Below are positions 2,192-14,521 of a stretch of DNA of 36,536 nt, in pieces. This stretch comes from a virus. The stretch is from the IMG/VR virus record IMGVR_UViG_3300025872_000149, positions 1 through 36,536 of that record; one strand, written 5' to 3'. A program made the position numbers and the translations under genes. The notes below the pieces were generated by a model. That model made no database searches, was not told the DNA's origin, and worked only from the letters and a program-made list of their open reading frames with translations. How positions within the stretch are numbered: the stretch's first letter is position 1; every line of letters begins with the position of its first letter.

Positions 2192-2221
2192 TTGACACAG
2201 ACGCTAGACATACGCTACATT
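2192..2221 (+). promoter_or_regulatory. Rightward promoter P1
   Basis: TTGACA at 2192-2197 and TACATT at 2216-2221 with an 18-base spacer. The same two hexamers with the same spacer recur at 5620-5649. A stem-loop starts 8 bases after the -10 hexamer, close to the expected transcription start. Confidence 0.7.
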
Positions 2222-2228
2222 TACATCA

Positions 2229-2258
2229 CTGCGCGACACGAATGGACGGAAGGCGCAG
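2229..2258 (+). ncRNA. 5'-terminal leader hairpin, copy 1
   Basis: Stem CTGCGC (2229-2234) pairs perfectly with GCGCAG (2253-2258) around an 18-base loop, GACACGAATGGACGGAAG. It begins where transcription from P1 should start and is followed after 16 bases by the ATG at 2275. Copies 2 (5657-5685) and 3 (5928-5957) have different stem sequences that remain complementary, and related loops. This is an untranslated cis element, not a separate gene. Confidence 0.65.
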
Positions 2259-2274
2259 CAACCAAAGGAACATC

Positions 2275-2430
2275 ATGATCAAGTACACATTTCAGAAAGC
2301 ATCTTTCAACGGCCTCAAAGGCTGGATCGCCACGCGTTGGATCGACGGGGTTCACTCGGGCAAAGCATTCGGCAAGACAAAGAAAGAAGCAGTTGCACAG
2401 TTTGATGAAGCTCTCTGGGAAAACTCATGA
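2275..2430 (+). CDS. Small hypothetical protein
   Basis: 51 residues, not recognised. The sequence alternates aromatic and basic residues (YTFQK, GLKGWIATRW, AFGKTKKEAVAQF), resembling a small antiparallel-beta plus helix fold of the kind common in phage early genes. The ATG at 2275 is preferred over an in-frame ATG at 2242 because AAAGGAA lies just before it and because the upstream bases form the leader hairpin. It is the first gene after promoter P1, and its stop overlaps the next start as ATGA. Confidence 0.7.
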   Translation: MIKYTFQKASFNGLKGWIATRWIDGVHSGKAFGKTKKEAVAQFDEALWENS

Positions 2431-2519
2431 AACGCACCCACCGCCAGATCCTCGCCGATGTAGCCTTTGCAATCGTCCTCGGAGCCACCTTCGGCGTGGT
2501 CTTCGGGATCTACTTCTAA
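2427..2519 (+). CDS. 30-residue membrane peptide
   Basis: A 30-codon gene coupled to the previous one by an ATGA overlap and ended right before a terminator hairpin. After a basic start (MKRTHRQ) almost all of the rest is hydrophobic with Gly (AFAIVLGATFGVVFGIYF), a single predicted membrane helix with the basic end inside. Function is unknown; small inhibitory or membrane-signalling phage peptides look like this. Support comes from translational coupling and the fit between promoter and terminator. Confidence 0.55.
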   Translation: MKRTHRQILADVAFAIVLGATFGVVFGIYF

Positions 2520-2544
2520 AAACGGCTTAAGAGCCGTTTTTTTT
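2518..2544 (+). terminator. Rho-independent terminator
   Basis: Stem AACGGCT (2521-2527), loop TAAG, stem AGCCGTT (2532-2538), followed by a run of T to 2544 and preceded by A residues. It begins at the stop codon of the 30-residue gene and would end or attenuate the P1 transcript before the next two genes. Confidence 0.85.
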
Positions 2545-2613
2545 GGTCGATACATGTCTAGGTAGCAGACACCACAAAAAAACGCTCCTAGGCGCTTCTA
2601 ATCGATTCCTATC

Positions 2614-2745
2614 ATGAAACAGACTCGAGTTGCCCACCTGTTGTCCCTCTTGAATGATGGCTGTGGTTTCAAGGCTGCTGTACTCTTGACAGCACTGTAT
2701 TTCAAAGTTCCTGAGCATCAAATCATCCAGGAGTTCTACAGATGA
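2614..2745 (+). CDS. Small hypothetical protein coupled to zinc-ribbon gene
   Basis: 43 residues, not recognised: a helical, mildly hydrophobic protein (VAHLLSLL, FKAAVLLTALYF, HQIIQEFYR) that could be a short helix-turn-helix or dimer unit. The ribosome site is weak. Its stop overlaps the start of the zinc-ribbon gene as ATGA, which argues for real translation and coupling. A small CCTAGG-centred palindrome lies just upstream. It is placed after the terminator at 2518-2544, so it is expressed by readthrough or from a promoter not clearly seen. Confidence 0.5.
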   Translation: MKQTRVAHLLSLLNDGCGFKAAVLLTALYFKVPEHQIIQEFYR

Positions 2746-3050
2746 TCTGTCCGAAGTGTGAAGCCCCAGCAAGGGTCCTAGAGACCCGCTGGAGCCAGAA
2801 AAAAGCCTGCACCCGTCGCAGACTTGGTTGTCCATCTTGCGGTTATAGATTCTCAATATTCGGGGATATTATGATTCCACAAATAGATAATCAATTAGAT
2901 TCAGAAGGAATGCCTAAATATACAGAGACCATTCAAGTCCTTGAGGACTTGGTCAGAAGCGCCGGTGGTTGCGCCACCATCGACCAAGTTGCTGTCGTCA
3001 AGGCATGGCGTTTAATTGACCGTTATAACGCCATTATTAACGGTAAATAA
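2742..3050 (+). CDS. Zinc-ribbon protein, NrdR/Ogr-like finger
   Basis: 102 residues. The N-terminal 40 residues form a zinc ribbon with CPKC at 3-6 and CPSC near 30-33, joined by a basic stretch (KKACTRRRLG) resembling the NrdR zinc finger and the Ogr/Delta phage activator type. The rest is helical, acidic in the middle, and ends in a helix (AVVKAWRLIDRYNAIIN). It is probably a small nucleic-acid-binding regulator; an Ogr-like role in late gene activation is possible but not shown. GGAG precedes the ATG, and a strong terminator follows 25 bases after the stop. Confidence 0.65.
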   Translation: MICPKCEAPARVLETRWSQKKACTRRRLGCPSCGYRFSIFGDIMIPQIDNQLDSEGMPKYTETIQVLEDLVRSAGGCATIDQVAVVKAWRLIDRYNAIINGK

Positions 3051-3074
3051 TAAGGTCCACCATCCTCCCCATCC

Positions 3075-3101
3075 AGCCCGCCGCGTGCGGGCTTTTCTTT
3101 T
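3075..3101 (+). terminator. Rho-independent terminator
   Basis: Stem AGCCCGC (3075-3081), loop CGCGT, stem GCGGGCT (3087-3093), then TTTTCTTTT. It ends the rightward 2275-3050 operon. Confidence 0.9.
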
Positions 3102-3240
3102 ATTTCCACCACATCCGTTAAGGCTGGCACTCGATCCGGGTCAATGTGGCCAGGAAGGCCATCCCACCAGCCCGCACCCACCTCACCACCACCAACCTCA
3201 ACCAATGTCTTTTTCATCATCACCTCATCAAATTTTCCAT

Positions 3241-3378
3241 GCAACGCAACAGCCCCACAAACATAGCGCAACAACGCAACTACCCTAAAGGGTAGTAGTT
3301 GCGTTGCGTTGCGCTAAAATGTTAGTCTTGTCACAAACGCAACTAAAAAAAAGTTGCGCAACAGTTGCGTTTTGTTGC
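3241..3378. repeat. GCAAC/GTTGC iteron-like cluster with central palindrome
   Basis: Within the 348-base gene-free gap between convergent genes (3051-3397), the pentamer GCAAC or its complement GTTGC occurs 12 times in 138 bases, mostly as CGCAAC, at 3241, 3246, 3268, 3276, 3298, 3303, 3308, 3339, 3353, 3358, 3364 and 3374. The centre is a perfect palindrome, CTACCCT-AA-AGGGTAG (3280-3295). It is flanked by inverted blocks running from AGCGCAAC (from 3265) to GTTGCGCT (to 3315). The cluster lies beside the primase-helicase gene. A replication origin, partition-type site or termination locus is possible; no convincing promoter or gene is seen in it. Confidence 0.7.
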
Positions 3379-3397
3379 GCTACTTTTTACCCCACTT

Positions 3398-5404
3398 TTA
3401 TGCCCTCAAAAGCATGGCAGATGCCTGAACGGTGTCCAAAACGATCCACCCATGCTCGTACGAGTCGATGACCTGGGAGATCAAAAGCTCCCCGATTGGC
3501 TTCCCCTTGGACGACGGTCGGACGTAGATCGAAGCTGATGCTTCGGTCAATTCAAGGGTATCCATCAGATATTGGATAAGCCCCGACCGGCTCAAATACG
3601 GCTGACCGGCTCGGGTTTCTTTTCCTGCCACTTCCCAAGCATTCTGAAATAATCTTATATGTTTGGTTAATTTATTAACCCCTTTATCGGATATTGGTTT
3701 ATTGACTATTTCAATAATGGCGCTGGTGACCTGTTCATCGTCCTCGTCGATCCATCCGTTGATCTCCACGGTGCGAAGCTGGGCGTATATGTCTGGTGCT
3801 ATTTCTGAGTCCTTAGCTTTGCGCTGGACGATCTGCATCGGAGCTTCGTCTTTTGCGGGAATGATGCTTACCTCAATGTCGAGGGCTCCTCTCCATGCTG
3901 ATGACCCCCGAGCGCGATGCTGGGCTTCTTCGCTGACCCCGGTGTGATGCACTAGCAGGACTGAGCAATTGAACTCGCGCATGAGCTGGCCGCAGGCGTC
4001 TAGCATCGTTTTAGCGTCCTGAGCGCTGTTTTCATCGCCGGATAGGAATCGGTGCAGGGTGTCAATGACGATTAGGTCGGGGGGCTCGGGAAGTTGTTTC
4101 AGGTGAGTTGAGGTAGACAGATAGCCTTCTGGGGTGTTCAGGTCGCACCCCGAGCGGCTGAGCCACATCTGTAAGCTGCTGGCTTGATGATGCTGTTTCC
4201 AGGCTGCTATCCGAGCCCTCAGACCGTGATGGCCTTCGCCTGCCAGATAAACTATTCTTGCGGGCTTGACTCGATTGCCTGCCCACTCTTGCATTCCGCT
4301 GGCTAGACGTAGGCACCAATCCAGGACTACGAACGTTTTACCGCCGCCGCTAGGACCATGGATCATGATAAGAGCGTCGGACTGCAACCAGCCTTTGATG
4401 AGCCATTTGATCGGCGCAGGCTTCTGGCAATAGTCATCGGCGGGGATAAGCCAAGACTCTTGAGGAGGGTTCAGAAGCAATGAGAGGTTATGCCCAGCCT
4501 GGTGGTAATCGTTGGCATCCCCCTCGACCGAGGGCATAACGTAGCTCACACCATACTTGGCACAAGCCTGCTCGGCATGGCGCTGACCGACTCCACTTTT
4601 ATCGTGATCTGCCACAATCACAATCTTCTGGTCTGGGTAGAGCTCAAGAAGCGAGCCGGTGACGGGGATCAGATTCGAGGCACTGTACGCAACGACACAG
4701 GGGCGACCGCTTACCTCATGGATTGTTGCGGCTGTGGCGAAGCCTTCGGCCAAGTAAAGCGTTCCGGGGCTATCGACTAGACCGATGAGCCAGAATTGGC
4801 CGCCCGTTTGTCCGCCGGAGTGGTAAAGCTTGCCGCCCTCGCTGTCTATGTATTGAAGGCTGGATAGCTCCCCGTCCTCGCTGAAAAGAGGCACCATGAG
4901 CCTACCGTCGCCGGTGATTTTGGCGCCGTGTGGCTGGATGCCTTTGCGTTTGAGGTACGGATGGTCCGGACTTGCCTGGACGCCCTCGCTCCAGATGGTC
5001 TCGACTGTGCTAGCGGCCACAGAACGATCGCGCTCTATCTCTGCATCGCGCAACTTTTTGGCCGCATTGACACGGGCCACGTGGGCCATTTCTTGGGCCG
5101 GTGTCCACCTTTTCTTCCCAATGTCGGCTTTGACTGTCTGGGTGAAGTTAGCTCGCCAGCATCCGAACGTGATGCTCGGAATGCCTTCTCCGTAAGCTAC
5201 GTACCAACCCGATCTATCAAGTGTCTTGCGGCTGTTTCCGCTTCTGAATCTGTGAATCCTCCCATCAATAATTATTTGGTCGGGAACGTCTAAACCCGAC
5301 TCGGCTACTGCGTTTTTGAACTGCACCTCGACTGGCAACGGTGCAGGGCCCACATCTACCGGGGGAGACCAAGGCCCCCCCAGCACGCGGGTGAGATCGG
5401 CCAT
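3398..5404 (-). CDS. TOPRIM primase - RecA-like helicase
   Basis: 668-residue replication protein. Residues about 210-300 are a TOPRIM domain with the conserved Glu in LYLAEGF (E220) and the VADHD pair (D266/D268). Residues about 330-560 are a RepA/DnaB-type ATPase with Walker A HGPSGGGKT (349-357), Walker B LIVIDTLHRF and a sensor-like LLVHHTG. The N-terminal 120 residues resemble the DUF927/primase-associated region of phage and plasmid primases. It likely primes and unwinds phage DNA. It starts directly after the HTH gene stop in the same leftward operon. No phage DNA polymerase is present, so host polymerase III is presumably recruited. The GCAAC repeat cluster lies just past its stop. 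Confidence 0.88.
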   Translation of the reverse strand: MADLTRVLGGPWSPPVDVGPAPLPVEVQFKNAVAESGLDVPDQIIIDGRIHRFRSGNSRKTLDRSGWYVAYGEGIPSITFGCWRANFTQTVKADIGKKRWTPAQEMAHVARVNAAKKLRDAEIERDRSVAASTVETIWSEGVQASPDHPYLKRKGIQPHGAKITGDGRLMVPLFSEDGELSSLQYIDSEGGKLYHSGGQTGGQFWLIGLVDSPGTLYLAEGFATAATIHEVSGRPCVVAYSASNLIPVTGSLLELYPDQKIVIVADHDKSGVGQRHAEQACAKYGVSYVMPSVEGDANDYHQAGHNLSLLLNPPQESWLIPADDYCQKPAPIKWLIKGWLQSDALIMIHGPSGGGKTFVVLDWCLRLASGMQEWAGNRVKPARIVYLAGEGHHGLRARIAAWKQHHQASSLQMWLSRSGCDLNTPEGYLSTSTHLKQLPEPPDLIVIDTLHRFLSGDENSAQDAKTMLDACGQLMREFNCSVLLVHHTGVSEEAQHRARGSSAWRGALDIEVSIIPAKDEAPMQIVQRKAKDSEIAPDIYAQLRTVEINGWIDEDDEQVTSAIIEIVNKPISDKGVNKLTKHIRLFQNAWEVAGKETRAGQPYLSRSGLIQYLMDTLELTEASASIYVRPSSKGKPIGELLISQVIDSYEHGWIVLDTVQASAMLLRA

Positions 5405-5593
5405 TTATATTGGATTGATCATTGTCTGTTTTGTGATGTAGTCGGACAAAATCGTCAGAGTGCGTGACGACGGGTTAAGGATCTCACCTTTTTTGATCCT
5501 GTGCAGCGTATTTGCATGTAGGCCGGTTGCTGCTGCCACCGTTGAGATGCGCCGGTCTGCCAAGGCAGCCCGGACCTGATCAAGATTCAACAT
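5405..5593 (-). CDS. Small HTH (Cro/CI-like) regulator
   Basis: 62 residues from the ATG at 5593, preferred over an upstream ATG at 5626 because AAAGGGG lies just before it. The central part (RISTVAAATGLHANTLHRIKKG) is a clear Cro/XRE-type helix-turn-helix, followed by a short helix (RTLTILSDYI). It probably binds the symmetric operator at 5617-5657 between its own promoter and the rightward early promoter and so acts as a genetic switch or autoregulator. It is smaller than lambda Cro-family repressors with cleavable domains, and no integrase is present, so it need not mean a temperate life style. Confidence 0.8.
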   Translation of the reverse strand: MLNLDQVRAALADRRISTVAAATGLHANTLHRIKKGEILNPSSRTLTILSDYITKQTMINPI

Positions 5594-5619
5594 CTTTTTC
5601 CCCTTTCGTTGTTGTGGTA

Positions 5620-5649
5620 TTGACATTGTGTAGTGAGTCGGGCTACATT
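5620..5649 (+). promoter_or_regulatory. Rightward early promoter P2
   Basis: TTGACA (5620-5625), 18-base spacer, TACATT (5644-5649): the same hexamers and spacer as P1. It drives the 5703 gene, with hairpin copy 2 starting 8 bases past the -10. Confidence 0.75.
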
Positions 5650-5654
5650 GTCAA
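5625..5654 (-). promoter_or_regulatory. Leftward promoter for HTH and primase-helicase
   Basis: On the minus strand TTGACA (5654-5649), 18-base spacer, CACAAT (5630-5625). It faces and overlaps P2, so firing in the two directions should exclude each other. The -10 match is weaker than that of P2. Confidence 0.55.
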
Positions 5655-5656
5655 TA

Positions 5657-5685
5657 CTGCACGAACGGACTAGCCGAAAGTGCAG
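5657..5685 (+). ncRNA. 5'-terminal leader hairpin, copy 2
   Basis: Stem CTGCAC (5657-5662) with GTGCAG (5680-5685), loop GAACGGACTAGCCGAAA with an inner CGG/CCG pairing. It starts 8 bases after the P2 -10 hexamer and ends 17 bases before the ATG. ACAACGAAAGGG follows it and serves as the ribosome site; a near copy of that string precedes the leftward HTH gene. Confidence 0.7.
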
Positions 5686-5702
5686 ACAACGAAAGGGAAA
5701 CC

Positions 5703-5888
5703 ATGCAACTCCTGACAGAAGACAACTATTACGAAGTTTGGGCTTCTAACGTGAATGATTACATTGTTCTGTGGTCGTCAGACTATCCAACAAAAGCAAA
5801 TTTGATTTGTACGTGCGACGATATGGATGAGGCAGTGGAAATGGCTAAGCTCTATATCCACTGTAAAAACAACGAGATTGAGTTTTGA
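5703..5888 (+). CDS. Hypothetical acidic early protein
   Basis: 61 residues, not recognised. It is rich in Asp, Glu and aromatics (EDNYYEVWASNVNDYIVLW), with two Cys in ICTCDD and one near the end. It is the first gene of the P2 transcript, with a good ribosome site (GAAAGGG). A separate promoter and hairpin leader (P3) follow at once, so it forms its own short unit. Small acidic first-expressed phage proteins often bind host regulators; that is only a guess here. Confidence 0.65.
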   Translation: MQLLTEDNYYEVWASNVNDYIVLWSSDYPTKANLICTCDDMDEAVEMAKLYIHCKNNEIEF

Positions 5889-5891
5889 CTA

Positions 5892-5920
5892 TTGACGGGG
5901 CAACAGTGCCCTGTTAAATT
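5892..5920 (+). promoter_or_regulatory. Rightward early promoter P3
   Basis: TTGACG (5892-5897), 17-base spacer, TAAATT (5915-5920). Hairpin copy 3 starts at 5928, giving the same 8-base offset from the -10 as in P1 and P2. It probably drives the long rightward operon up to 14521. Confidence 0.65.
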
Positions 5921-5927
5921 GAACACA

Positions 5928-5957
5928 TCGAACGAACGGAATAGGCCGACGGTTCGA
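5928..5957 (+). ncRNA. 5'-terminal leader hairpin, copy 3
   Basis: Stem TCGAAC (5928-5933) with GTTCGA (5952-5957), loop GAACGGAATAGGCCGACG with an inner CGG/CCG pairing. It is followed after 17 bases by the ATG at 5975. The loop is nearly the same as in copy 2 while the stem sequence is different, which is compensatory change supporting an RNA structure. Confidence 0.7.
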
Positions 5958-5974
5958 CGAACAAAGAGAACGAG

Positions 5975-6253
5975 ATGAAAAACAATGATCTGATGCTGAC
6001 CCAAGCCGATCAACTGGGCCAACTGTTGGCTGAGATTGATGTGCTTACCAAGCAAGCCGACGCTATCAAAGCTTTGATGCGTGAAGCTGGCGGAGTGCAT
6101 GATGGCGTGTTGTTCCGTTCCACGGTTGTGGAGTCGAATCGGTCGGTCACCGACTGGAAGGCTCTCTGTGCTGCCCAAGGCATTGGGGCTGATGTGATTG
6201 CCGCCCACACCAAGACCACAGCGGTCTACTCGGTCAAGACCACCTCAAAATAA
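5975..6253 (+). CDS. Hypothetical helical protein
   Basis: 92 residues, not recognised. Residues 8-40 form a likely coiled coil (QADQLGQLLAEIDVLTKQ and on); the C-terminal half resembles small proteins found beside phage recombination genes (VLFRSTVVESNRSVTDWKAL). It is the first gene of the P3 transcript and sits upstream of the Sak4-like ATPase, so an accessory role in recombination or replication is possible. A weak AAAGAGAA precedes the ATG. Function unknown. Confidence 0.7.
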   Translation: MKNNDLMLTQADQLGQLLAEIDVLTKQADAIKALMREAGGVHDGVLFRSTVVESNRSVTDWKALCAAQGIGADVIAAHTKTTAVYSVKTTSK

Positions 6254-6258
6254 AGGAG

Positions 6259-6273
6259 GGGGGCCTAGCCCCC
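6259..6273 (+). promoter_or_regulatory. GC-rich hairpin at ribosome site
   Basis: GGGGGC and GCCCCC pair around a 3-base loop (CTA). The strong Shine-Dalgarno AGGAGG (6254-6259) abuts the 5' side and the ATG at 6279 lies 5 bases after the 3' side. Folding would bring a too-distant ribosome site (19 bases) to a workable distance, or could mask it. No T run follows, so it is not a good terminator. Confidence 0.5.
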
Positions 6274-6278
6274 ATCAC

Positions 6279-6398
6279 ATGGAAACCCCTCCACCGAACT
6301 GGCCGTTCCCGACGTACAAAGGGAACCCGCTTCCAAAACCACCTCCCTCACCGTTCCGTCAGGAACCCCTACCACCTGCGCCACCGGCGCCTTTTTAA
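6279..6398 (+). CDS. Proline-rich 39-residue peptide
   Basis: 39 codons ending 9 bases before the ATPase gene. About 17 of 39 residues are proline (METPPPNWPF, PLPKPPPSPF, PPAPPAPF), with three similar segments each ending in PF. Such low complexity can arise from base composition, but the strong Shine-Dalgarno upstream and exact fit between two genes favour translation. It would be an extended, unfolded peptide; a binding partner is unknown. Confidence 0.5.
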   Translation: METPPPNWPFPTYKGNPLPKPPPSPFRQEPLPPAPPAPF

Positions 6399-6407
6399 TG
6401 AAACAAC

Positions 6408-7079
6408 ATGGCTATAAATCTCAAAACCACCAAATCACTCGCGGCATCTGGCGTAAAACTTCTGGTCTACGGTCAAGCCGGGGCCGGTAAGACGACCCTG
6501 ATACCAAGCTTGCCGACGCCTGTAGTGTTGTCGGCTGAGGGCGGTCTGCTGTCGATTGCAGACGCTGACGTGCCTTTTATTGAGATAGGCACGATGGCTG
6601 CTTTGTGGGAGGCTTGGGAGTGGCTAACGAAGTCTGCGGAAGCTACCCACTTTGAAAGCGTTGCGCTAGATAGTATTAGTGAAATTGCGGAGGTCGTGTT
6701 GTCCGCTGAGAAGAAATCTAGCAAAGATCCTCGACAGGCTTACGGTGCGATGCAAGAGCAAATGGCTGACATCATCCGGGCATTCCGTGATGTGCCAGGC
6801 AAGCACGTTTACATGTCTGCAAAGCTAGAAAAGAACCAAGACGAAATGGGCCGGATACTCTACTCCCCATCAATGCCGGGCAATAAAACCGGACAAAGCC
6901 TACCCTACTTTTTCGATGAAGTGCTGGCGCTAAGAGTTGAGAAGAATGCTGAAGGCGAGACACAACGGGCACTGATGTGTGACTCTGATGGACTATGGGT
7001 TGCTAAAGATAGATCCGGAAAGCTTGAGATGTGGGAAGCCCCCGACTTAGGGGCGATCATCCGAAAAATTGAGAGTTAA
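6408..7079 (+). CDS. Sak4-like RecA-fold ATPase (recombination)
   Basis: 223 residues with Walker A GQAGAGKT (22-29), a Walker B-like SVALDSISEIAEV and no other domain, as in the AAA_24/Sak4 family of phage single-strand annealing-associated ATPases (usual length about 220-300). It would load on single-stranded DNA with a phage SSB and support recombination or replication restart. The neighbours agree: a DUF669-like protein and a RecB/Cas4-like nuclease lie just downstream. Start ATG at 6408, with ribosome site not strong. Confidence 0.82.
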   Translation: MAINLKTTKSLAASGVKLLVYGQAGAGKTTLIPSLPTPVVLSAEGGLLSIADADVPFIEIGTMAALWEAWEWLTKSAEATHFESVALDSISEIAEVVLSAEKKSSKDPRQAYGAMQEQMADIIRAFRDVPGKHVYMSAKLEKNQDEMGRILYSPSMPGNKTGQSLPYFFDEVLALRVEKNAEGETQRALMCDSDGLWVAKDRSGKLEMWEAPDLGAIIRKIES

Positions 7080-7081
7080 CT

Positions 7082-7303
7082 ATGAACGCTCACGAGATCC
7101 TTGAACTGTGGAACAACACTCGGCACAAACATGCTGGCGAATGCTGGGACAGTCTAGCCCTAACATTTGCCGGGGGGGTCGCTAGGACTGTGCAGGAAAG
7201 ATGCGCGAGAGTCTGTGACGACTATTGCATCACTGCCCCTTTCACTGCGGCTGCTGTGGCGCACGAGCTGGCCCACAGAATTAGATCCGTGAGCTTCGAT
7301 TAA
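7082..7303 (+). CDS. Hypothetical protein
   Basis: 73 residues, not recognised. Mostly helical, with three Cys in the middle (ERCARVCDDYC) and His residues that could bind metal. It starts 2 bases after the ATPase stop, so translation is coupled. It lies between the Sak4-like ATPase and other recombination genes. Small helical proteins with an RCARVCD-type string are frequent in phage early regions; no function is known. Confidence 0.65.
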   Translation: MNAHEILELWNNTRHKHAGECWDSLALTFAGGVARTVQERCARVCDDYCITAPFTAAAVAHELAHRIRSVSFD

Positions 7304-7313
7304 AAGGATAACT

Positions 7314-7700
7314 ATGAAGACGATTGAACAACTAGCCGAAGAGTGGGAGCAGATTAAAGCTGCCGAGGAACAAATTAAGACTCGTAGAAGGGAGATTGAA
7401 GACGAAATCACAGAACTTTTGAACCTGCCGAAAGACTTGGATCAGCAAAAGACCCACGACATCGGTTTTTACAAACTAAAAGTCACGGGACGAATTGACC
7501 GCAAGGTAGATGCTGATAAACTGCAAGCACTTGCCGAGGAAGCTGGACTAACAGAACACCTCGGGAGCTTGTTTCGGTGGAAGCCTGAGATCAACCTGCC
7601 CGCATGGAAGGCTGCGCACACTGACATCACAGGCCCTCTACTCGACGCAATCACGACCAAGGCCGCAAGGCCAAGCTATGCCATCACTAGAAAGGACTGA
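7314..7700 (+). CDS. Conserved phage protein with N-terminal coiled coil
   Basis: 128 residues. Residues 1-38 are a long charged helix (EEWEQIKAAEEQIKTRRREIEDEI) and the rest is a compact domain (GFYKLKVTGRIDRKVDADKL ...). Proteins of this build sit between Sak4-like ATPase and DUF669 genes in many phages and are taken as recombination accessories, similar in build to host-nuclease inhibitor families such as Gam or Gp157 but not clearly a member. AAGGATA precedes the ATG. Confidence 0.7.
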   Translation: MKTIEQLAEEWEQIKAAEEQIKTRRREIEDEITELLNLPKDLDQQKTHDIGFYKLKVTGRIDRKVDADKLQALAEEAGLTEHLGSLFRWKPEINLPAWKAAHTDITGPLLDAITTKAARPSYAITRKD

Positions 7701-7703
7701 ACC

Positions 7704-8198
7704 ATGGCACTACTCAACCAACCAATCGAACTCAACAGCATTCCAATCACTGAAAAGTCTTACGGACTGATTCCTGCTGGCTGGTACACGGCCACAATCT
7801 CAAAGTCTGAGCTTCGCATGACAAAGTCCGGAACCGGCGAGATGATCGCCTGTATGTTTACGATCAGCGGCCCGACTCACCAGGGGCGTACCTGCTGGAC
7901 AAACATCAACATTCGCAATCAGAACCCTAAGGCTGAAGAAGTCGGGCGTGAGCAGTTGGGCTACTTGATGCGAGCCACCGGAATCAGCCAGGTTGTTGAC
8001 ACGGATGTTTTGATTGGCAAGACGTGCCAGATCAAGATTGCAGTTCGAGACGACGAGCGTTACGGTGAAGGTAACGAGATCAAAGGGTTTAGGGCTGCTG
8101 AAGGTGGCTCAATGCCTCAGGGCGGCGGGTTGCCCATGCCTGCGCTGGCGTCTGCTCCAAGCCCTTCTAAAGCTGCTCCTCCGTGGGCTAAGAAGTAA
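7704..8198 (+). CDS. DUF669-like protein, probable single-strand DNA-binding partner
   Basis: 164 residues. The core (GLIPAGWYTATISKSELR ... TGEMIACMFTISGP ... REQLGYLMRATG) matches the DUF669 pattern of a beta-barrel phage protein found with Sak/Sak4 recombinases and thought to act as SSB. Residues 130-164 are a Gly/Pro/Ala/Ser-rich unfolded tail ending PPWAKK, like the disordered tail of SSBs, although lacking the acidic tip of host SSB. It starts 3 bases after the preceding stop. Confidence 0.72.
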   Translation: MALLNQPIELNSIPITEKSYGLIPAGWYTATISKSELRMTKSGTGEMIACMFTISGPTHQGRTCWTNINIRNQNPKAEEVGREQLGYLMRATGISQVVDTDVLIGKTCQIKIAVRDDERYGEGNEIKGFRAAEGGSMPQGGGLPMPALASAPSPSKAAPPWAKK

Positions 8199-8204
8199 AA
8201 GAAA

Positions 8205-8234
8205 AAGCCCCCGAGATGTGAGTCAAGGGGGCTT
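8205..8234 (+). terminator. Possible terminator or attenuator
   Basis: Perfect 8-base stem AAGCCCCC (8205-8212) with GGGGGCTT (8227-8234) and a 14-base loop. What follows (AACTTTC) is a poor T run, so it may only reduce transcription into the nuclease gene or protect the upstream mRNA end. Confidence 0.45.
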
Positions 8235-8279
8235 AACTTTCACGAGTTACACCCAACTGCGAAAGGAGACAAAGCAATT

Positions 8280-9242
8280 ATGGCACAGGTGTCTATCCCA
8301 AATCCAATTGTTGAAGCTATTGACCAGGCTTACCAAGACACCCAGGAGCCGCCACGAGGGCATTTAGGGGCCTCAATGCTTGGCCATAAGTGTGATCGTT
8401 GGCTTTGGCTGTCTTTCAGGTGGGCGGTGATAGAAAAGTTCCCCGGTCGGATCCTGCGGCTATTCCGCCGTGGCCAGGACGAAGAAGCCAGGATTGTCGG
8501 GGACCTATGCCGGATCGGTGTGCAGTTTCGAGACACCAAGGGCGAGCAGGTACGGGTTGATTTTGGCTCGCATGTGTCTGGATCGGTGGATGCAATCATT
8601 GAGTCTGGTCTGCCAGGCGCACCGAAGGCCAAACACGTAGTGGAGATGAAGACGCATTCACTAAAAAGCTTCAACGATTTATGCGCCAAGGGTGTCCAGC
8701 AGTCAAAGCCTATGCACTGGGCCCAAATGCAGGTTTATATGCATGGCTTGGGCATTCATCGAGCGTTGTATTACGCGATCTGCAAAGACGATGACAGGAT
8801 CTACACTGAACGGCTACACTATGACAATCAGGCAGCTGAGAAGCTGGTGGATAAGGGCAGACGAATTGCGCAAGCAGACCGGATGCCAGAGCCGTTGAGC
8901 AGTGACCCAACGTGGTGGGAGTGCAAGTTTTGTGCAGCGCACGAGTTTTGCCACAAAACCAAGAAGACTAGGGAAGTGAACTGTAGGACATGCGCACATT
9001 CAACGGCTAGCGTCTCTGGTCACTGGGGGTGTGCAAAATGGGGTAACGACATCCCTGAGGATTGGCAAAGAACAGGGTGTTCGTCGCACGTTGTTCACCC
9101 GGATCTAGTGCCGTGGAAGCTGAAAGGAAGCGACGGTAACGGCTGGAGAGCAATCTATTTGGTGGACGGGCGCGAGGTGGTGAACGGTGAACCTGGGCCC
9201 GGGGTGGTGTCTAGTGAGGAACTTCTGAAGGATAAGGAATGA
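8280..9242 (+). CDS. RecB/Cas4-like PD-(D/E)XK nuclease with Cys clusters
   Basis: 320 residues. The nuclease core has D104 (SGSVDAII) and E122-x-K124 (VVEMKTH). C38 together with C215, C218 and C224 (ECKFCAAHEFC) has the layout of the iron-sulfur cluster seen in Cas4 and AddB-type nucleases. A second Cys group follows (CRTC at 235-238, C251, C267), probably a separate zinc or cluster site not present in the minimal family. It probably trims double-strand ends to make single strands for the Sak4/DUF669 pair. AAAGGAG precedes the ATG; the stop overlaps the next gene as ATGA. Confidence 0.82.
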   Translation: MAQVSIPNPIVEAIDQAYQDTQEPPRGHLGASMLGHKCDRWLWLSFRWAVIEKFPGRILRLFRRGQDEEARIVGDLCRIGVQFRDTKGEQVRVDFGSHVSGSVDAIIESGLPGAPKAKHVVEMKTHSLKSFNDLCAKGVQQSKPMHWAQMQVYMHGLGIHRALYYAICKDDDRIYTERLHYDNQAAEKLVDKGRRIAQADRMPEPLSSDPTWWECKFCAAHEFCHKTKKTREVNCRTCAHSTASVSGHWGCAKWGNDIPEDWQRTGCSSHVVHPDLVPWKLKGSDGNGWRAIYLVDGREVVNGEPGPGVVSSEELLKDKE

Positions 9243-9469
9243 ACTGTACACACAGAGCGATAAGGTCATGGTCAGAGCTGAATGGCAAGCCGGTACCGAT
9301 GTGGACATGCGTTGATTGTGGCGCCATGTTTGAGCTTAGGCGCGAAATGAAACCGCTGACTGATCCTCAGATTCATGAGCTTGATTGGCCAAAAACTTGG
9401 AATTACGACGATGTGAGGGATTTTGTTATATCAGTGGAACAGGCGCATGGGATTTGGGGGAAGGTATGA
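9239..9469 (+). CDS. Small protein with zinc-knuckle and HGI tail
   Basis: 76 residues, not assigned. The first half has Cys/His spaced as a possible zinc ribbon (MNCTHR ... WTCVDCG). The second half is a short module (PLTDPQIHEL ... EQAHGI) that recurs at the end of the next gene. Both flanking junctions are ATGA overlaps. This tail module is frequent in small phage proteins, but its role is not known. Confidence 0.65.
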   Translation: MNCTHRAIRSWSELNGKPVPMWTCVDCGAMFELRREMKPLTDPQIHELDWPKTWNYDDVRDFVISVEQAHGIWGKV

Positions 9470-9828
9470 CAACACTACGATCAGCAGCAGAGATGGCGCT
9501 TGAGGCTCTTCGCGTAGCTACTACGCCGCGTTCAGAAGATCGTCAAACAGTGCTGATGGCACAAGCCGCTTTACTCATAGCACTAGCGGAGCCTGAACCG
9601 GAGCCGGTGGCGTATGGATACAGAGATGCTAGAGGAAACATCAGACTGCTCAACCATTACGAAACGAAAATGGATCGCATACCCCTTTACACATCCCCAC
9701 CCCAGCGCCAGCCGCTGACGGATGAGGAGATTGACGCGCTTGCGATTGACGAGGATGGCTTACCAAACAGCCACTTTGAATTCGCCCGCGCCATTGAGCG
9801 AGCACACGGGATAGGGAGCCAAGAATGA
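9466..9828 (+). CDS. Hypothetical protein with HGI tail
   Basis: 120 residues from ATG 9466 (ATGA overlap with the previous stop; an in-frame ATG at 9385 would overlap far into that gene). The N-terminus is helical (LRSAAEMALEALRVA). The middle (PEPVAYGYRDARGNIRLLNH) resembles the short beta segment seen in many phage early proteins, and the end (PLTDEEIDALAIDE ... AIERAHGI) is the same module as in the preceding gene. Function unknown. Confidence 0.68.
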   Translation: MTTLRSAAEMALEALRVATTPRSEDRQTVLMAQAALLIALAEPEPEPVAYGYRDARGNIRLLNHYETKMDRIPLYTSPPQRQPLTDEEIDALAIDEDGLPNSHFEFARAIERAHGIGSQE

Positions 9829-10040
9829 AAGAACAAACCACAGAACATCTGCAACAACTGGCTTGGGAGTGTGGATTCATGATTGAGCTGGATCTTCCGA
9901 GGCTCATTAAGTTTGCAGGTCTAGTACGAGCTGATGCATTCTCAGCCGGGTTTGAATCTGGAATGAACTATCAACGAACGATGAGCCTGAAGGTGTTGGA
10001 GCAGGCAGCTAGAGAGATCGGAGAACGCCGCCGTGACTAA
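9825..10040 (+). CDS. Hypothetical helical protein
   Basis: 71 residues, not recognised. Predicted all-helical and amphipathic (LQQLAWECGFMIELDL, LVRADAFSAGFESGM, LEQAAREIGERRRD). ATGA overlap at the start and an 8-base overlap with the following gene at the end suggest a tightly coupled operon. Confidence 0.62.
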   Translation: MKEQTTEHLQQLAWECGFMIELDLPRLIKFAGLVRADAFSAGFESGMNYQRTMSLKVLEQAAREIGERRRD

Positions 10041-10452
10041 TTACAACCCTGTAACTCCGAAGAATAAGGGTAGGAACTATTGCCGGGTCAATGCCATGTC
10101 TCTGGCCCAGCTAATCAAGTTCTTGTCTGAAGGGATCTATTCTTGCAAGGAACTTGCAGAAGAATCAGGTCTTCACTACGTCACTGTTCTGACCTATACC
10201 CGGGAGATGTATCGGGCAGGTGTGTTGTACATCAAGGCTTGGGAGAAGGATGTCAGAGGAACTGACCAGATAAGAATCTATGCCCTTGGAAACAAGCCCG
10301 ACGCCAAGAAACAGAAGCTAAGTTCTGTTGACAAACAGAGACGGCACCGACAGAAGAAACAGCAAATGAAGGTGATTCAGATGATTGCAGGGGACTCTAA
10401 ATTGTGCGAGCGGAAACCGAAGGCACAGCAAACACAGGAAATGGCAGCATGA
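10033..10452 (+). CDS. Winged-helix DNA-binding protein
   Basis: 139 residues starting with GTG at 10033, inside the previous gene, with GGAG upstream. Residues 22-75 form a probable winged helix (LAQLIKFLSEGIYSCKELA, then ESGLHYVTVLTYTREMYRAG as recognition helix). The C-terminal 60 residues are very basic (KQRRHRQKKQQMK). It probably binds DNA as a phage regulator or replication accessory. The position before the methyltransferase does not settle which. Confidence 0.68.
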   Translation: MTNYNPVTPKNKGRNYCRVNAMSLAQLIKFLSEGIYSCKELAEESGLHYVTVLTYTREMYRAGVLYIKAWEKDVRGTDQIRIYALGNKPDAKKQKLSSVDKQRRHRQKKQQMKVIQMIAGDSKLCERKPKAQQTQEMAA

Positions 10453-10640
10453 ACATCAAACTAATACCGCCAAAGATTGATGCTTTTGACGATGATCACA
10501 TTGCCGTTTTCACCATGGAGATGGTAGGTGAGGATATCGCCAGCATTGAGATCCGGGCTTGGATTGATAGGGATAACTGGCCGCACATTCAAAAGGCAGT
10601 TACCGATGCTTTGGAGATGATGTTTCCGGAGGGTGCATGA
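10449..10640 (+). CDS. Small hypothetical acidic protein
   Basis: 63 residues from ATG 10449 (ATGA overlap with the previous stop); an ATG at 10404 lies inside the upstream gene and is less likely. The composition is acidic with a beta-rich middle (IAVFTMEMVGEDIASIEIRAW) and a final helix. Its end carries the GGAGG ribosome site used by the two overlapping genes that follow. Function unknown. Confidence 0.6.
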   Translation: MNIKLIPPKIDAFDDDHIAVFTMEMVGEDIASIEIRAWIDRDNWPHIQKAVTDALEMMFPEGA

Positions 10641-11428
10641 ATGAGTTGGCTCTTTTCGCGGGTGCTGGTGGAGGAATTCTCGGGGGAAAACTGCTCGGAT
10701 GGAGAACAGTCTGTGCCGTCGAATGGGAGCCCTACCCCGCAAGCGTTCTTGTCCAGCGACAAAATGACGGGCTTCTCCCGCCTTTCCCGATCTGGGATGA
10801 CGTTCAAACCTTTGACGGAAAGCCGTGGAAAGGAATCGTTGACGTTGTATCTGGCGGGTTTCCATGCCAAGACATCAGTGTTGCCGGGAAAGGAGCAGGC
10901 ATTGACGGAAAACGCTCGGGAATGTGGTCACACATGGCGCGGATCATTGGCGATGTTCGACCCCGTTTCGTCTTCGTGGAAAACAGCCCAGCCATCATTA
11001 CTAGAGGACTTGGGCGAGTCCTTGGTGATTTGGCCTCGCTCGGGTATGACTGTAAATGGACAGTGCTGGGAGCTGCCGACGTTGGAGCACCGCATCAACG
11101 GGATAGATTCTGGCTTGTGGCCAACTCCAACAGTATGCGGAAATTACAACCGGAAGGGAGCCAGCAAGACAAGCGGGGATGGTCTGGCAACGGCTGTATT
11201 CAAGTGTGCAACCCCAACAGCCAGAGACTGGAAAAGCGGGAAAGCCAGCCAGGCAACAATGGAGAGGAATTCCAGACCTCTATCGGAGCAAATTGGTGGA
11301 AGTCTGAACCCACCATGGGTCGAGTGGCTTATGGGGTGGCCGGAAGGGTGGACAGACTTAAAGCCATTGGAAACGGTCAAGTTCCAGCAGTGGCAGCAAC
11401 AGCATGGAGGCTGCTAAATGCTCCGTGA
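10637..11428 (+). CDS. DNA cytosine-5 methyltransferase (Dcm-like)
   Basis: 263 residues with the C5-methyltransferase motifs in order: I (LFAGAGGG, 6-13), IV (GGFPCQ with the catalytic C77), VI (ENSP at 115-118), VIII (QRDRFW) and X (GNGQVP near 246). It transfers methyl from SAM to cytosine, presumably to shield phage DNA from host restriction. The target domain between VIII and X is short (about 80 residues), as in other phage enzymes of this type. The ATG overlaps the previous stop; GGAGG lies just upstream. Another complete reading frame, shifted by +1, covers almost all of the gene (10641-11417). No restriction enzyme is adjacent. Confidence 0.92.
   Translation: MNELALFAGAGGGILGGKLLGWRTVCAVEWEPYPASVLVQRQNDGLLPPFPIWDDVQTFDGKPWKGIVDVVSGGFPCQDISVAGKGAGIDGKRSGMWSHMARIIGDVRPRFVFVENSPAIITRGLGRVLGDLASLGYDCKWTVLGAADVGAPHQRDRFWLVANSNSMRKLQPEGSQQDKRGWSGNGCIQVCNPNSQRLEKRESQPGNNGEEFQTSIGANWWKSEPTMGRVAYGVAGRVDRLKAIGNGQVPAVAATAWRLLNAP
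10641..11417 (+). CDS. Overlapping +1-frame protein within methyltransferase gene
   Basis: 258 codons without a stop in the +1 frame, starting 4 bases after the methyltransferase ATG and using the same GGAGG. The product looks like a protein: an N-terminal part rich in Ser, Phe and Trp (MSWLFSRVLVEEFSG), two WPTPT/ATPTARDW-type repeats in the middle (LWPTPTVCGNYNRKG, CATPTARDWKSGK) and an ending WVEWLMGWPEGWTDL. From memory, proteins of this pattern are annotated as hypothetical next to phage cytosine methyltransferases. By rough estimate a random frame would stay open this long only a few times in a million. Function is unknown; action together with the methyltransferase is a guess. It could still be a codon-bias shadow. 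Confidence 0.55.
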   Translation: MSWLFSRVLVEEFSGENCSDGEQSVPSNGSPTPQAFLSSDKMTGFSRLSRSGMTFKPLTESRGKESLTLYLAGFHAKTSVLPGKEQALTENARECGHTWRGSLAMFDPVSSSWKTAQPSLLEDLGESLVIWPRSGMTVNGQCWELPTLEHRINGIDSGLWPTPTVCGNYNRKGASKTSGDGLATAVFKCATPTARDWKSGKASQATMERNSRPLSEQIGGSLNPPWVEWLMGWPEGWTDLKPLETVKFQQWQQQHGGC

Positions 11429-13016
11429 CTACCAACAGCGCGCCATCGACCAGCTTTACGAATGGTTCAGACGCGGCAATGAAGGCAACCCTTGCCTGGT
11501 TCTTCCAACAGGATCGGGCAAGAGTCACATCGTGGCGGCACTGTGCAAGGATGCTTTGCAGAACTGGCCTGAAACCCGTGTTCTGATGCTCACTCATGTG
11601 AAGGAGCTGATTGAGCAAAACGCGGAGAAAATGAGACTCCATTGGACGGGTGCGCCAATGGGTATTTATAGCGCTAGCATTGGCCGCAGGCAACTGGGCG
11701 AGCCTATAACTTTTGCCGGCATCCAGTCAATCCGCAGCAAAGCCGAGCTGATTGGGCATGTGGATCTCTGCATCATTGATGAGTGTCACCTAGTCGGACA
11801 CAAAGACGAAGGCGGCTACAGAACGTTATTGTCCGACCTGAAGCAGATCAACCCGGACATGAGAGTGATTGGTCTGACGGCTACCCCGTGGCGTTTGGGG
11901 CATGGCCTGATTACGGACGAACCGGCTATCTTCTCAGACCTGATTGAGCCTGTGTCCATTGATGAACTGGTGCGCAGGAAGTTTCTTGCGCCCCTCCGGT
12001 CAAAAGTGACGGACTCTAGGTTAGATGTCTCAGGCGTGAAGAAGCGTGGCGGAGAGTACATTGAGAGCGAGCTGCAAGCCGCCGTCAACACCGATCCACA
12101 GAACCGGGCGATCGTCTCTGAAGTCATCCAACGGGCTGGAGATCGGAAGGCTTGGTTGTTCTTTTGTGCCGGTGTTCAACATGCACAGGATGTGCGTGAC
12201 GTTCTACGAGGCTTTGGGATCGTTGCGGAATGCGTGACAGGGGATACGCCAAAAGCGGAGCGTGAACGCATTTTGACGCTCTACAAAGGTGGCGAGATCA
12301 GGGCATTGACTAACGCGAATGTGTTAACGACTGGCTTTGATTACCCCGATATTGATCTGGTGGCGATGCTCCGGCCGACGATGAGCCCGAGCCTTTATGT
12401 ACAGATGGCAGGACGAGGGATGCGCCCAAAGAGTCACACCGATCATTGCTTGGTGCTGGACTTCGCAGGCGTGGTGTCAACGCATGGGCCAATCACAGCC
12501 GTCCAGCCTCCGAAGAAATCAGGGTCTGGCAATGGCGAGGCTCCGGTGAAGGTTTGTGAAACCTGCCATGAGCTGTGCCCGATTTCTGCCAGGCGATGTC
12601 CCGCGTGTGGTACGCCGTTTCCTGAGCCAGAAAAAAAGCCGCTGCTCTTGCACAGTGACGATATCATGGGCATCGAGGGCACGAAGATGTCCGTAAGGTC
12701 TTGGATCTGGCGAAAGCACACAAGCAAGGCCTCAGGTAAACAAATGTTAGCAGTGACGTATTACGGGGCTCTAAGCGATGCTCCGGTCACAGAGTACATC
12801 GCAGTCATGCATGAAGGATATGCCGGTCAGAAAGCGATTCAGACGCTACTGACGATGGCTAGGCGATCCAGGGCCGACTTGCAATCAGCAGATGATCTGG
12901 AAGAAGCAGTCAAGGCGATGAACAGCGCAAAAGCGCCAACAGTCGTGGAGTACAGAAAAGAGGGGAAGTTTTTCCGAGTGATCAACAGAGAATGGAGAGA
13001 CGATGATAGAGCCTGA
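11418..13016 (+). CDS. Superfamily II DEAH/DECH helicase
   Basis: 532 residues. Helicase motifs: Q-like MLRDYQQRAID, I (LPTGSGKS, 29-36), II (DECH, 121-124), III (LTATP), V (NVLTTGFDYPDIDLV) and VI (QMAGRGMR). After the helicase core a zinc ribbon follows (CETC ... CPAC, about 375-395) and a C-terminal domain of 130 residues. Phage helicases of this class (UvsW/RecG-like in role) act in recombination-dependent replication or repair. It overlaps the methyltransferase stop by 11 bases and is followed by small genes and the VRR-NUC nuclease, a frequent pairing in phages. Confidence 0.88.
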   Translation: MLRDYQQRAIDQLYEWFRRGNEGNPCLVLPTGSGKSHIVAALCKDALQNWPETRVLMLTHVKELIEQNAEKMRLHWTGAPMGIYSASIGRRQLGEPITFAGIQSIRSKAELIGHVDLCIIDECHLVGHKDEGGYRTLLSDLKQINPDMRVIGLTATPWRLGHGLITDEPAIFSDLIEPVSIDELVRRKFLAPLRSKVTDSRLDVSGVKKRGGEYIESELQAAVNTDPQNRAIVSEVIQRAGDRKAWLFFCAGVQHAQDVRDVLRGFGIVAECVTGDTPKAERERILTLYKGGEIRALTNANVLTTGFDYPDIDLVAMLRPTMSPSLYVQMAGRGMRPKSHTDHCLVLDFAGVVSTHGPITAVQPPKKSGSGNGEAPVKVCETCHELCPISARRCPACGTPFPEPEKKPLLLHSDDIMGIEGTKMSVRSWIWRKHTSKASGKQMLAVTYYGALSDAPVTEYIAVMHEGYAGQKAIQTLLTMARRSRADLQSADDLEEAVKAMNSAKAPTVVEYRKEGKFFRVINREWRDDDRA

Positions 13017-13194
13017 AGTTGTCAGACTGTACCGAGAGAAGGTCAAAGAGCGCCCATACCCGCCCAAGTGCTGCTACACATGCGATCACTACTCAGACAA
13101 CAGTTATTGCACCATGTTCGATGAAACGGTTCCCAAAGATTTCGCCGAGTCATTGGATCAGTGCCCGAGCTGGTTCGAGGAGGTGCCCTTTTGA
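13003..13194 (+). CDS. Small Cys-rich (zinc or Fe-S) protein
   Basis: 63 residues overlapping the helicase end. The Cys pattern C-C-x2-C then C, then C-x2-W (CCYTCDHYSDNSYC ... QCPSW) suggests a metal site. The same motif style occurs in the virion-region protein at 24525-24932. Located between helicase and nuclease; function unknown. Confidence 0.65.
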   Translation: MIEPEVVRLYREKVKERPYPPKCCYTCDHYSDNSYCTMFDETVPKDFAESLDQCPSWFEEVPF

Positions 13195-13370
13195 CCAAGA
13201 ACGAACAACTCAAATTTGAAAGGCTTGAGCGATTGCTCGAGGCTGAAAGACAAAGAGCAGAGAAAGCCTGGGAGGCATACAGACAGACTCTTTATGAGCT
13301 GGTGGATATAAAAATGCGTCTTGAGGGTGTCCAGAGAGCACTTGATGACAAGTTTGAGGACGACAAATGA
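13191..13370 (+). CDS. Small coiled-coil protein (TTG start)
   Basis: 59 residues, most of it a single charged helix with heptad character (FERLERLLEAERQRAEKAWE, then KMRLEGVQRALDDKFEDD). The TTG at 13191 is chosen because GAGGAGG sits 9 bases before it and it overlaps the previous stop as TTGA; a GTG at 13161 has no such site. The stop overlaps the nuclease start as ATGA. A likely oligomer or adaptor of unknown role. Confidence 0.6.
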   Translation: MTKNEQLKFERLERLLEAERQRAEKAWEAYRQTLYELVDIKMRLEGVQRALDDKFEDDK

Positions 13371-13714
13371 GAACAGAACACGAAGAACAACGCGATTTTG
13401 TGAAGTGGTTCCGTCAGAGCTTCCCGGCCACTCGCATCTTTGCTATCCCGAACGGCGGCCAACGCTCTATCACCACAGCCGCCAAGCTAAAGGCAGAAGG
13501 CGTCTGTCGAGGTGTCCCGGATCTTTGCATTCCAGCCTGGGGCGTTTGGGTGGAGATGAAACGCGAAAAGGGCGGTGTCTTGAGCGAAGATCAAAAAAGC
13601 TGGATTGATTACCTCGAGGGGCACCAGTATCACTGCCTGGTGGCCAAGGGCTGCGAGGACGCAAAACAACAGATTGGTGAGTTCATCCTTGAACACATTG
13701 ACACCCAAGAGTGA
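13367..13714 (+). CDS. VRR-NUC nuclease
   Basis: 115 residues, the normal size of stand-alone phage VRR-NUC proteins. Catalytic pattern: E near residue 8 in the first helix, GVPDL with D52, and E63-x-K65 (WVEMKRE), then Q in the last helix. The family includes Holliday-junction and flap nucleases (as in FAN1), so a role in resolving recombination or packaging intermediates is likely. It is the usual partner of the upstream SF2 helicase in phage genomes. Confidence 0.88.
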   Translation: MRTEHEEQRDFVKWFRQSFPATRIFAIPNGGQRSITTAAKLKAEGVCRGVPDLCIPAWGVWVEMKREKGGVLSEDQKSWIDYLEGHQYHCLVAKGCEDAKQQIGEFILEHIDTQE

Positions 13715-13760
13715 CTCAGATAACATTCTTCTGTCTTAACAAACAACCTGAGGACTCAAA

Positions 13761-14027
13761 ATGTTTTGTTCTGTTGATGCTGATTTGAACCGTTACTTCC
13801 AGAAACTTGAAGCCGATGACAAGGCTTGGGAACTGGCGGTTGCCGACGCTCTTGATAGTGACGAGTTGGAGGAGATGTTTGACGAGGAAAACGACATCCT
13901 CAAGGCCTGCCGGGATCTTGAAGACAAGAAGATGACTTACGAGGAATTGGGTCGGTTCGTGATGAACATGCGCAATAAGTGCCTGCACAAAGTTGCTCAG
14001 GGCATCTTCGACAACATGAAATACTAA
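13761..14027 (+). CDS. Hypothetical acidic helical protein
   Basis: 88 residues, strongly acidic in the middle (ALDSDELEEMFDEENDIL) and helical throughout; no recognised family. GAGG precedes the ATG after a 46-base gap from the nuclease. The acidity could allow DNA mimicry or binding to a host nucleic-acid enzyme, but nothing in the sequence proves it. Confidence 0.65.
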   Translation: MFCSVDADLNRYFQKLEADDKAWELAVADALDSDELEEMFDEENDILKACRDLEDKKMTYEELGRFVMNMRNKCLHKVAQGIFDNMKY

Positions 14028-14033
14028 AGTTTT

Positions 14034-14079
14034 GGGGGTCGTAGTCAGGTAAGCCCGAATGAGTTCGGCGCCCCCGCCA
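14034..14079 (+). ncRNA. Structured leader before DUF6378-like gene
   Basis: GGGGG (14034-14038) pairs with CCCCC (14071-14075), enclosing a perfect hairpin, CCGAA-TGAG-TTCGG (14055-14068). The 3' strand is followed by GCCA, so the closing helix looks like a tRNA acceptor end, and GTAGTCAGG at 14040-14048 recalls a tRNA D arm. The anticodon arm is absent, so it is not a tRNA gene. It ends 15 bases before the ATG at 14095 and could act as a regulatory RNA element or terminator-like brake. Confidence 0.5.
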
Positions 14080-14094
14080 GACAACGGAGCCAAA

Positions 14095-14370
14095 ATGAGT
14101 ATTGAGAATACTTTGACAGAGCGTGGTGATCGATACGGAAAGTTCTCCGGTCACGCAACGGTCTCGCAAGATCTAAAGCTAATGATCTCTATGCATCTGC
14201 GTCACAGAGGCAAGGTTCTTGCACCGGATCAGCAAGAAGCATTAGAAATGATCTGTCACAAGATCGCCAGGATTATCAATGGCGACCCCGACTACATCGA
14301 CAGTTGGCATGACATAGCAGGTTATTCAACCCTAGTAGTACAACGACTAAAAGGAGAGGACGATGTGTGA
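14095..14370 (+). CDS. DUF6378-like phage protein
   Basis: 91 residues from the ATG at 14095 (GGAG upstream; an in-frame ATG at 14059 lies inside the leader structure). The sequence follows the pattern of a family common in tailed phages: a TERGDRYGKFSGHA start, a helical centre (HKIARIINGDPDYIDSWHDIAGY) and a short charged end. All-helical, with conserved Asp/His residues that could bind metal or nucleotide as in MazG-like folds; function unknown. The end overlaps the next gene. Confidence 0.75.
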   Translation: MSIENTLTERGDRYGKFSGHATVSQDLKLMISMHLRHRGKVLAPDQQEALEMICHKIARIINGDPDYIDSWHDIAGYSTLVVQRLKGEDDV

Positions 14371-14521
14371 TGGAAACTGCAACCAAGGCCGCGATTGCGA
14401 CTGTTTGATTGATATCTACGACTACTCTCAGAAGATGGAGGGTGTCATGTCCTTCATTGCCAACTGCCTGTTGGTTCTGATGACTGCGCTATTCTTGTTC
14501 GGGATCTTTTACCTGTTTTAA
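14363..14521 (+). CDS. Small membrane protein with Cys-rich N-terminus
   Basis: 52 residues. The N-terminus has CDGNCNQGRDCDC, a compact Cys motif seen in short phage proteins, and the C-terminal half is one hydrophobic helix (FIANCLLVLMTALFLFGIFY). The start overlaps the previous gene by 8 bases with AAAGGAGAGG upstream. It is the last rightward gene and its final 33 bases overlap the end of the leftward lysozyme gene. A membrane role near lysis is possible; it is not coded with the lysis genes. Confidence 0.6.
   Translation: MCDGNCNQGRDCDCLIDIYDYSQKMEGVMSFIANCLLVLMTALFLFGIFYLF

Follow-up and report, generated by a model that had tools for sequence, protein, structure and literature searches.

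A promoter-locked RNA hairpin family in the leaders of early genes of freshwater phages

Three hairpins in the genome of an environmental phage, each placed at a fixed distance behind an early promoter, belong to a genuine family of phage RNA leaders that is not in Rfam. The same element was found in dozens of related IMG/VR phages and in one complete GenBank genome. The family is well supported as a structured RNA, and the environmental (freshwater) phages that carry it form a large group. By its position the leader appears most like a 5'-terminal stabilising hairpin combined with a recognition motif, and it can be regarded as a portable expression module attached to early promoters.

Three leaders and their setting in the window

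The window is an IMG/VR virus record (IMGVR_UViG_3300025872_000149, positions 1 to 36,536). Its late genes, including those for terminase and the major head protein, lie on the minus strand, and its early genes include primase/helicase, a Cro-like regulator, a Sak4-like annealing ATPase, an exonuclease and others. The initial annotation had placed hairpins at 2229, 5657 and 5928, and all three were recovered from the sequence and by RNA folding, with coordinates and pairing as described (Table 1). The stems and loops that it listed exist, the loops being given in an order that does not match the stems, and the inner CGG/CCG that it noted in two loops is found in H2 and H3. The fixed spacing also held: 7 bases separate the -10 hexamer from the stem in H1, H2 and H3 alike, and 16 (H1) or 17 (H2 and H3) bases separate the hairpin from the ATG.

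Table 1. Features of the window that bear on the leaders (coordinates in the window; scores are those of the covariance model)
Feature	Position	Strand	Description
Promoter of H1	2192..2221	+	sigma70-type, TTGACA-18-TACATT; arrangement repeated in relatives
Leader H1	2228..2259	+	predicted +1 A; stem CTGCGC/GCGCAG (2229-2234 with 2253-2258), internal loop, short inner helix; hairpin 2229-2258, CTGCGC-GACACGAATGGACGGAAG-GCGCAG; ATG at 2275; 37.2 bits, E 3.5e-7
51-aa ORF behind H1	2275..2430	+	gene at the same place differs in most relatives
Intrinsic terminator 3' of H1	2522..2544	+	ACGGCTTAAGAGCCGT then U-run; internal terminator in a minority of relatives
Cro/CI-type HTH gene	5405..5626	-	divergent from H2
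Promoter of H2	5620..5649	+	TTGACA-18-TACATT; faces promoter of the minus-strand HTH gene
Leader H2	5656..5686	+	stem CTGCAC/GTGCAG, internal loop GAA/AAA, inner helix CGG/CCG; hairpin 5657-5685, CTGCAC-GAACGGACTAGCCGAAA-GTGCAG; ATG at 5703; 38.5 bits, E 1.7e-7
61-aa ORF behind H2	5703..5888	+	
Promoter of H3	5892..5920	+	TTGACG-17-TAAATT
Leader H3	5927..5958	+	stem TCGAAC/GTTCGA, internal loop GAA/ACG, inner helix CGG/CCG; hairpin 5928-5957, TCGAAC-GAACGGAATAGGCCGACG-GTTCGA; ATG at 5975; 39.5 bits, E 9e-8
92-aa gene behind H3	5975..6253	+	first gene of the operon
Sak4-like ATPase gene	6408..7079	+	in many relatives itself the first gene behind the leader

The minimum-energy fold of each RNA is the structure described, with z-scores of -2.3 (H1), -5.2 (H2) and -2.3 (H3). 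When the three leaders were folded up to the ATG, the stretch behind the hairpin was essentially unstructured and the SD region essentially open, the hairpin lying upstream of the ribosome site without sequestering it; the same stretch is A/G-rich in relatives. Perfect seeds (6-bp stem, 14-20-nt loop) occur 98 times in the 36.5-kb window, or about 0.003 per position, and three of three at one fixed offset are therefore not a product of chance. A fourth candidate in the window, at 10401-10429 and scoring 21.5 bits, falls within ORF 10033-10452, in coding sequence and with no fitting promoter, and was treated as chance. No leader-type hairpin is present at the predicted transcript start of the minus-strand HTH gene.

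Two further features of the region were observed. A proline-rich small ORF (METPPPNWPFPTYKGNPLPKPPPSPFRQEPLPPAPPAPF, 6279-6398) lies immediately 5' of Sak4; its GC-rich end, although terminator-like, is coding sequence, and several relatives have similar DNA 5' of Sak4. The 3' end of the primase gene is adjoined by 11 CGCAAC/GTTGCG hexamers in 170 nt (3230-3400), a cluster that could be an iteron-like replication origin; such clusters, at 10-11 hexamers per 200 nt, are also found in the related phages L008, L012 and L023 and are absent from several others.

Recurrence and covariation in related phages

Homologues of the 92-aa gene and of Sak4 were taken from IMG/VR, and their upstream regions were picked by gene, not by hairpin. 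The hairpin is present in 22 of the 22 distinct regions upstream of 92-aa gene homologues (at least 82% identity), compared with 1.2 expected from shuffles. It is present in 36 of 51 distinct regions upstream of Sak4 homologues, compared with 10.2 expected in the same loose test, and several Sak4 phages without an adjacent hairpin have the leader farther upstream, at the operon start. The initial annotation had called for a covariance model and for further members with paired changes; the model (R1), run on related phages, found one to three strong copies per genome in most relatives, all on the early-gene strand, and the search for paired changes was strongly positive. Stems in relatives include TCGAAC/GTTCGA, TCGAGC/GCTCGA, TCGCAC/GTGCGA, CTGCGC/GCGCAG, CACCAC/GTGGTG, CACCTC/GAGGTG and TGCCCC/GGGGCA. 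A scan with the 14-nt 5' half of the hairpin gave 112 new viral matches, 40 with a complementary 3' arm, and in all but two of these 40 a promoter-like sequence is rightly placed.

The complete GenBank genome MW202867 (Manatee Spring, with P22-like head genes) carries the leader and is 95% identical over the region. An annotated 30-codon minus-strand CDS, UOF82827.1, covers the leader there (MW202867.1 12246-12335; L485 19918-20007) and is probably spurious. In Idiomarinaceae phage 1N2-2 and Salicola phage CGphi29, Sak4 is preceded by divergent forms with the internal loop AAC/ACC, and a hairpin judged by eye is also found upstream of Sak4 in Alteromonas phages PB15 and XX1924.

In 862 kb of unrelated contigs there was no covariance model match below E 0.05, and among at least 117 matches listed for the 14-nt 5' half in cellular genomes, four had a complementary 3' arm, all four chance-like and without a promoter. 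One hairpin match in a related phage (L150, at 6177) has no visible promoter and was set aside as probably chance. Rfam 15 gave no match in the window at the curated (gathering) score, and lax searches gave none over the leaders examined, in line with the earlier statement that no named RNA family has this form; a full-text search of the open-licence literature found no description of the element, which is weak evidence of novelty.

The covariance model also found no leader in distant homologues of the 92-aa gene (L041-L059, 47-59% identity). Several of these have other short hairpins near the leader start, judged by eye; in L044-L059, CTGC-N6-GCAG, CGGTC-N6-GACCG and similar forms start about 6-7 nt after a -10-like hexamer. 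Distant relatives may thus have a second, simpler class of 5'-terminal hairpin.

At H1-type loci the leader stays while the small genes behind it vary widely between phages. These variable genes (window 2275-2520; L006-L036) are usually closed by the same terminator, GCCCGCCGCGTGCGGGC followed by a T run, and the locus resembles a cassette for variable early genes, possibly of anti-host or anti-defence function.

The consensus consists of an A, a 6-bp stem, R-A-M, a 3-bp helix C-N-G / C-N-G, a 5-6-nt loop starting with A, and A-M-N before the closing stem strand, so that the internal loop is 3x3 (RAM/AMN). The inner helix alternates between CGG/CCG, CAG/CTG, CTG/CAG and CCG/CGG. Among 27 diverse sequences, standard pairs make up 98.4% of pair cells, a figure biased upwards because this set, unlike the gene-anchored sets, was picked for paired outer stems; two-sided changes are seen in 7 of 9 pairs, and the covariation score is 0.707, compared with 0.175 for shuffled and at most 0.072 for slid sequences. 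Parsimony on the trees of two downstream genes gave 13 and 21 compensatory events (~34 in all), counts that may be too high if leaders have recombined with one another; a single change that broke a pair of the outer stem was seen on neither tree. Pairing is thus kept while the letters change, as had been proposed from the three hairpins of the window.

In alignment A1, little or no variation is seen at the unpaired A9 and A23, at the closing pair G13-C20 or at A14 in the loop, whereas promoter spacers are near random; for A9 and A23 the evidence is this alignment and the gene-anchored list, both A's having been a selection criterion in the set of 72 representatives. In that set a C-A dinucleotide stands 5' of the stem (C in 60 of 72, A in 63 of 72), as expected of a transcription start. 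When the best -10 was sought over 0-25 nt, without bias as to position, its distance to the stem was 7 nt in 45 of the 56 gene-anchored leaders and 8 or 9 nt in 10 others, whereas the distance from hairpin to start codon ranged over 11-29. A promoter distance that is near-fixed while the start-codon distance varies ties the element to the predicted RNA 5' end, in agreement with the earlier proposal of an RNA element at that place.

Candidate functions

The presence of three different palindromes in one phage, the covariation inside the loop and the restriction to one strand show that the element acts as RNA. We propose, with about even confidence, that it is a 5'-terminal structured leader of early (lytic) mRNAs that would protect them against 5'-end-dependent decay, with an internal loop recognised by a factor. 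Host RNA polymerase would start at the A directly before the stem, and each transcript would begin with pppA, followed at once by the 6-bp stem, the 3x3 internal loop, the 3-bp inner stem and the A-starting loop. In a host with these enzymes, the lone unpaired 5' nucleotide would deny access to the RNA pyrophosphohydrolase RppH and to the 5' sensor of RNase E, the unstructured A/G-rich stretch past the hairpin would keep the ribosome site open, and early messages would become long-lived whichever gene comes next. Both RppH and RNase E depend on a single-stranded 5' end, and mRNAs are stabilised by structure there (PMC3997798); the B. subtilis RppH requires at least two unpaired 5' nucleotides (PMC3997798). 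Since the stem begins 9-10 nt after the -10 in the divergent forms L130 and CGphi29, a single unpaired 5' nucleotide may not hold for all members.

The genes behind H1-type leaders differ while the leader stays, and the leader can be found at the operon start when Sak4 is not first, which together suggest a function independent of cargo; this fits a general expression module. Protection alone cannot account for the whole function, since a plain physical barrier needs no conserved unpaired nucleotides. Their near-invariance, set against the near-random promoter spacers, implies recognition, and a host or phage factor that would reinforce or time the protection probably touches the conserved internal loop and the G-A...C closure at the apex.

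Were recognition the main role, the leader would be the site of a phage- or host-encoded RNA-binding protein that jointly represses or activates translation of the early operons as an RNA regulon, with 5'-end protection incidental. We regard this as possible though rather unlikely: hairpins that bind proteins typically combine fixed unpaired nucleotides with stems of variable sequence, and the presence of different early genes behind the one to three copies in a genome would suit a regulon, but the spacing is the opposite of that expected of a translational operator, the hairpin lies upstream of the ribosome site without sequestering it, and none of the early proteins examined had a recognised RNA-binding domain. 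Such a site was the second of three functions offered by the initial annotation, and it may coexist with 5'-end protection, the first of them and the one that fits best. The remaining suggestion, a put-like RNA whose hairpin, as it emerges, would bind in cis to the host RNA polymerase and render it resistant to pausing or termination, has been weakened and now seems improbable. It would account for a directly promoter-proximal place on early transcripts, for several copies per genome and for the terminator that separates H1 from the genes at 2613-3050, a stretch in which no promoter is obvious. An internal terminator behind H1 is missing in most relatives, however; no intrinsic terminator was found in 5960-14480, and 16 of 18 relatives had none within the few kb downstream that were examined, so that put-type antitermination would have few such sites to overcome in the main early operon, and a single 31-nt hairpin contrasts with the two stem-loops of put. 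We consider doubtful a looser form, in which a single minimal hairpin would act in cis by docking on host RNA polymerase, or on some other host factor, at the promoter exit and would privilege early phage transcription or messages without a phage protein.

A reading in which a phage repressor would bind the palindromes at the start site as operators in double-stranded DNA, the RNA hairpin being incidental, is very improbable. A Cro/CI-type HTH gene adjoins H2 and an imperfect palindrome overlaps the H2 promoter, but this palindrome is a separate feature that stops before the stem. The three palindromes (CTGCGC, CTGCAC, TCGAAC) differ within one phage while their loops are related, which rules out one shared DNA operator, the inner 3-bp helices within the loop covary too, and the element is on one strand only, with conserved asymmetric unpaired positions. 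Two other candidates were rejected. A CsrA/RsmA site requires ANGGA unpaired in the loop, whereas the GG here is paired in the inner helix and replaced in many relatives (GAACAGATT...CTG, GAACTGATT...CAG); the 28-nt repeats of phage YuA, annotated as 'putative sigma70 promoter requiring phage-encoded cofactor', are unrelated in sequence and have no such hairpin.

With this family two questions become testable: by what means the first phage mRNAs survive amid an intact host decay machinery, and which factor reads the conserved internal loop. The element is a possible short, gene-independent mRNA-stabilising leader for expression in proteobacteria, and its covariance model is a means to locate early promoters in phages of the same lineage. 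If the docking reading were true, the leader would represent a smaller, new class of put-like or host-factor-recruiting leader in a widespread freshwater phage lineage.

Comparison with known systems

The closest likeness is to the 5'-terminal stabilising stem-loops of the ompA/papA type (Emory 1992; Bricker and Belasco 1999, as cited in PMC3997798), in which a stem at or beside the mRNA 5' end is followed by an open ribosome site and the stem letters are free if paired. In the phage leaders the stem would likewise lie within a few nucleotides of the predicted start, as the 7-nt spacing from the -10 and the C-A before the stem indicate, and the ribosome site is unpaired in the folds of the three leaders. 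Unlike that type, the phage leader is a phage-borne family with a conserved internal loop and conserved apical nucleotides, at up to three promoters per genome, and the likeness drawn here is one of position.

With HK022 put, which consists of two adjacent stem-loops, the leader shares a promoter-proximal RNA structure on early phage transcripts and more than one copy per genome. It differs from put in being one short hairpin, and in that the main early operon has no intrinsic terminators, although one stands behind H1. Phage translational operator hairpins, such as the MS2/R17 coat-protein operator and the T4 RegA or gp43 sites, overlap the ribosome site. The phage leader resembles them in having variable stems around a few fixed unpaired purines; unlike them, it is locked to the predicted transcription start, not placed at the ribosome site.
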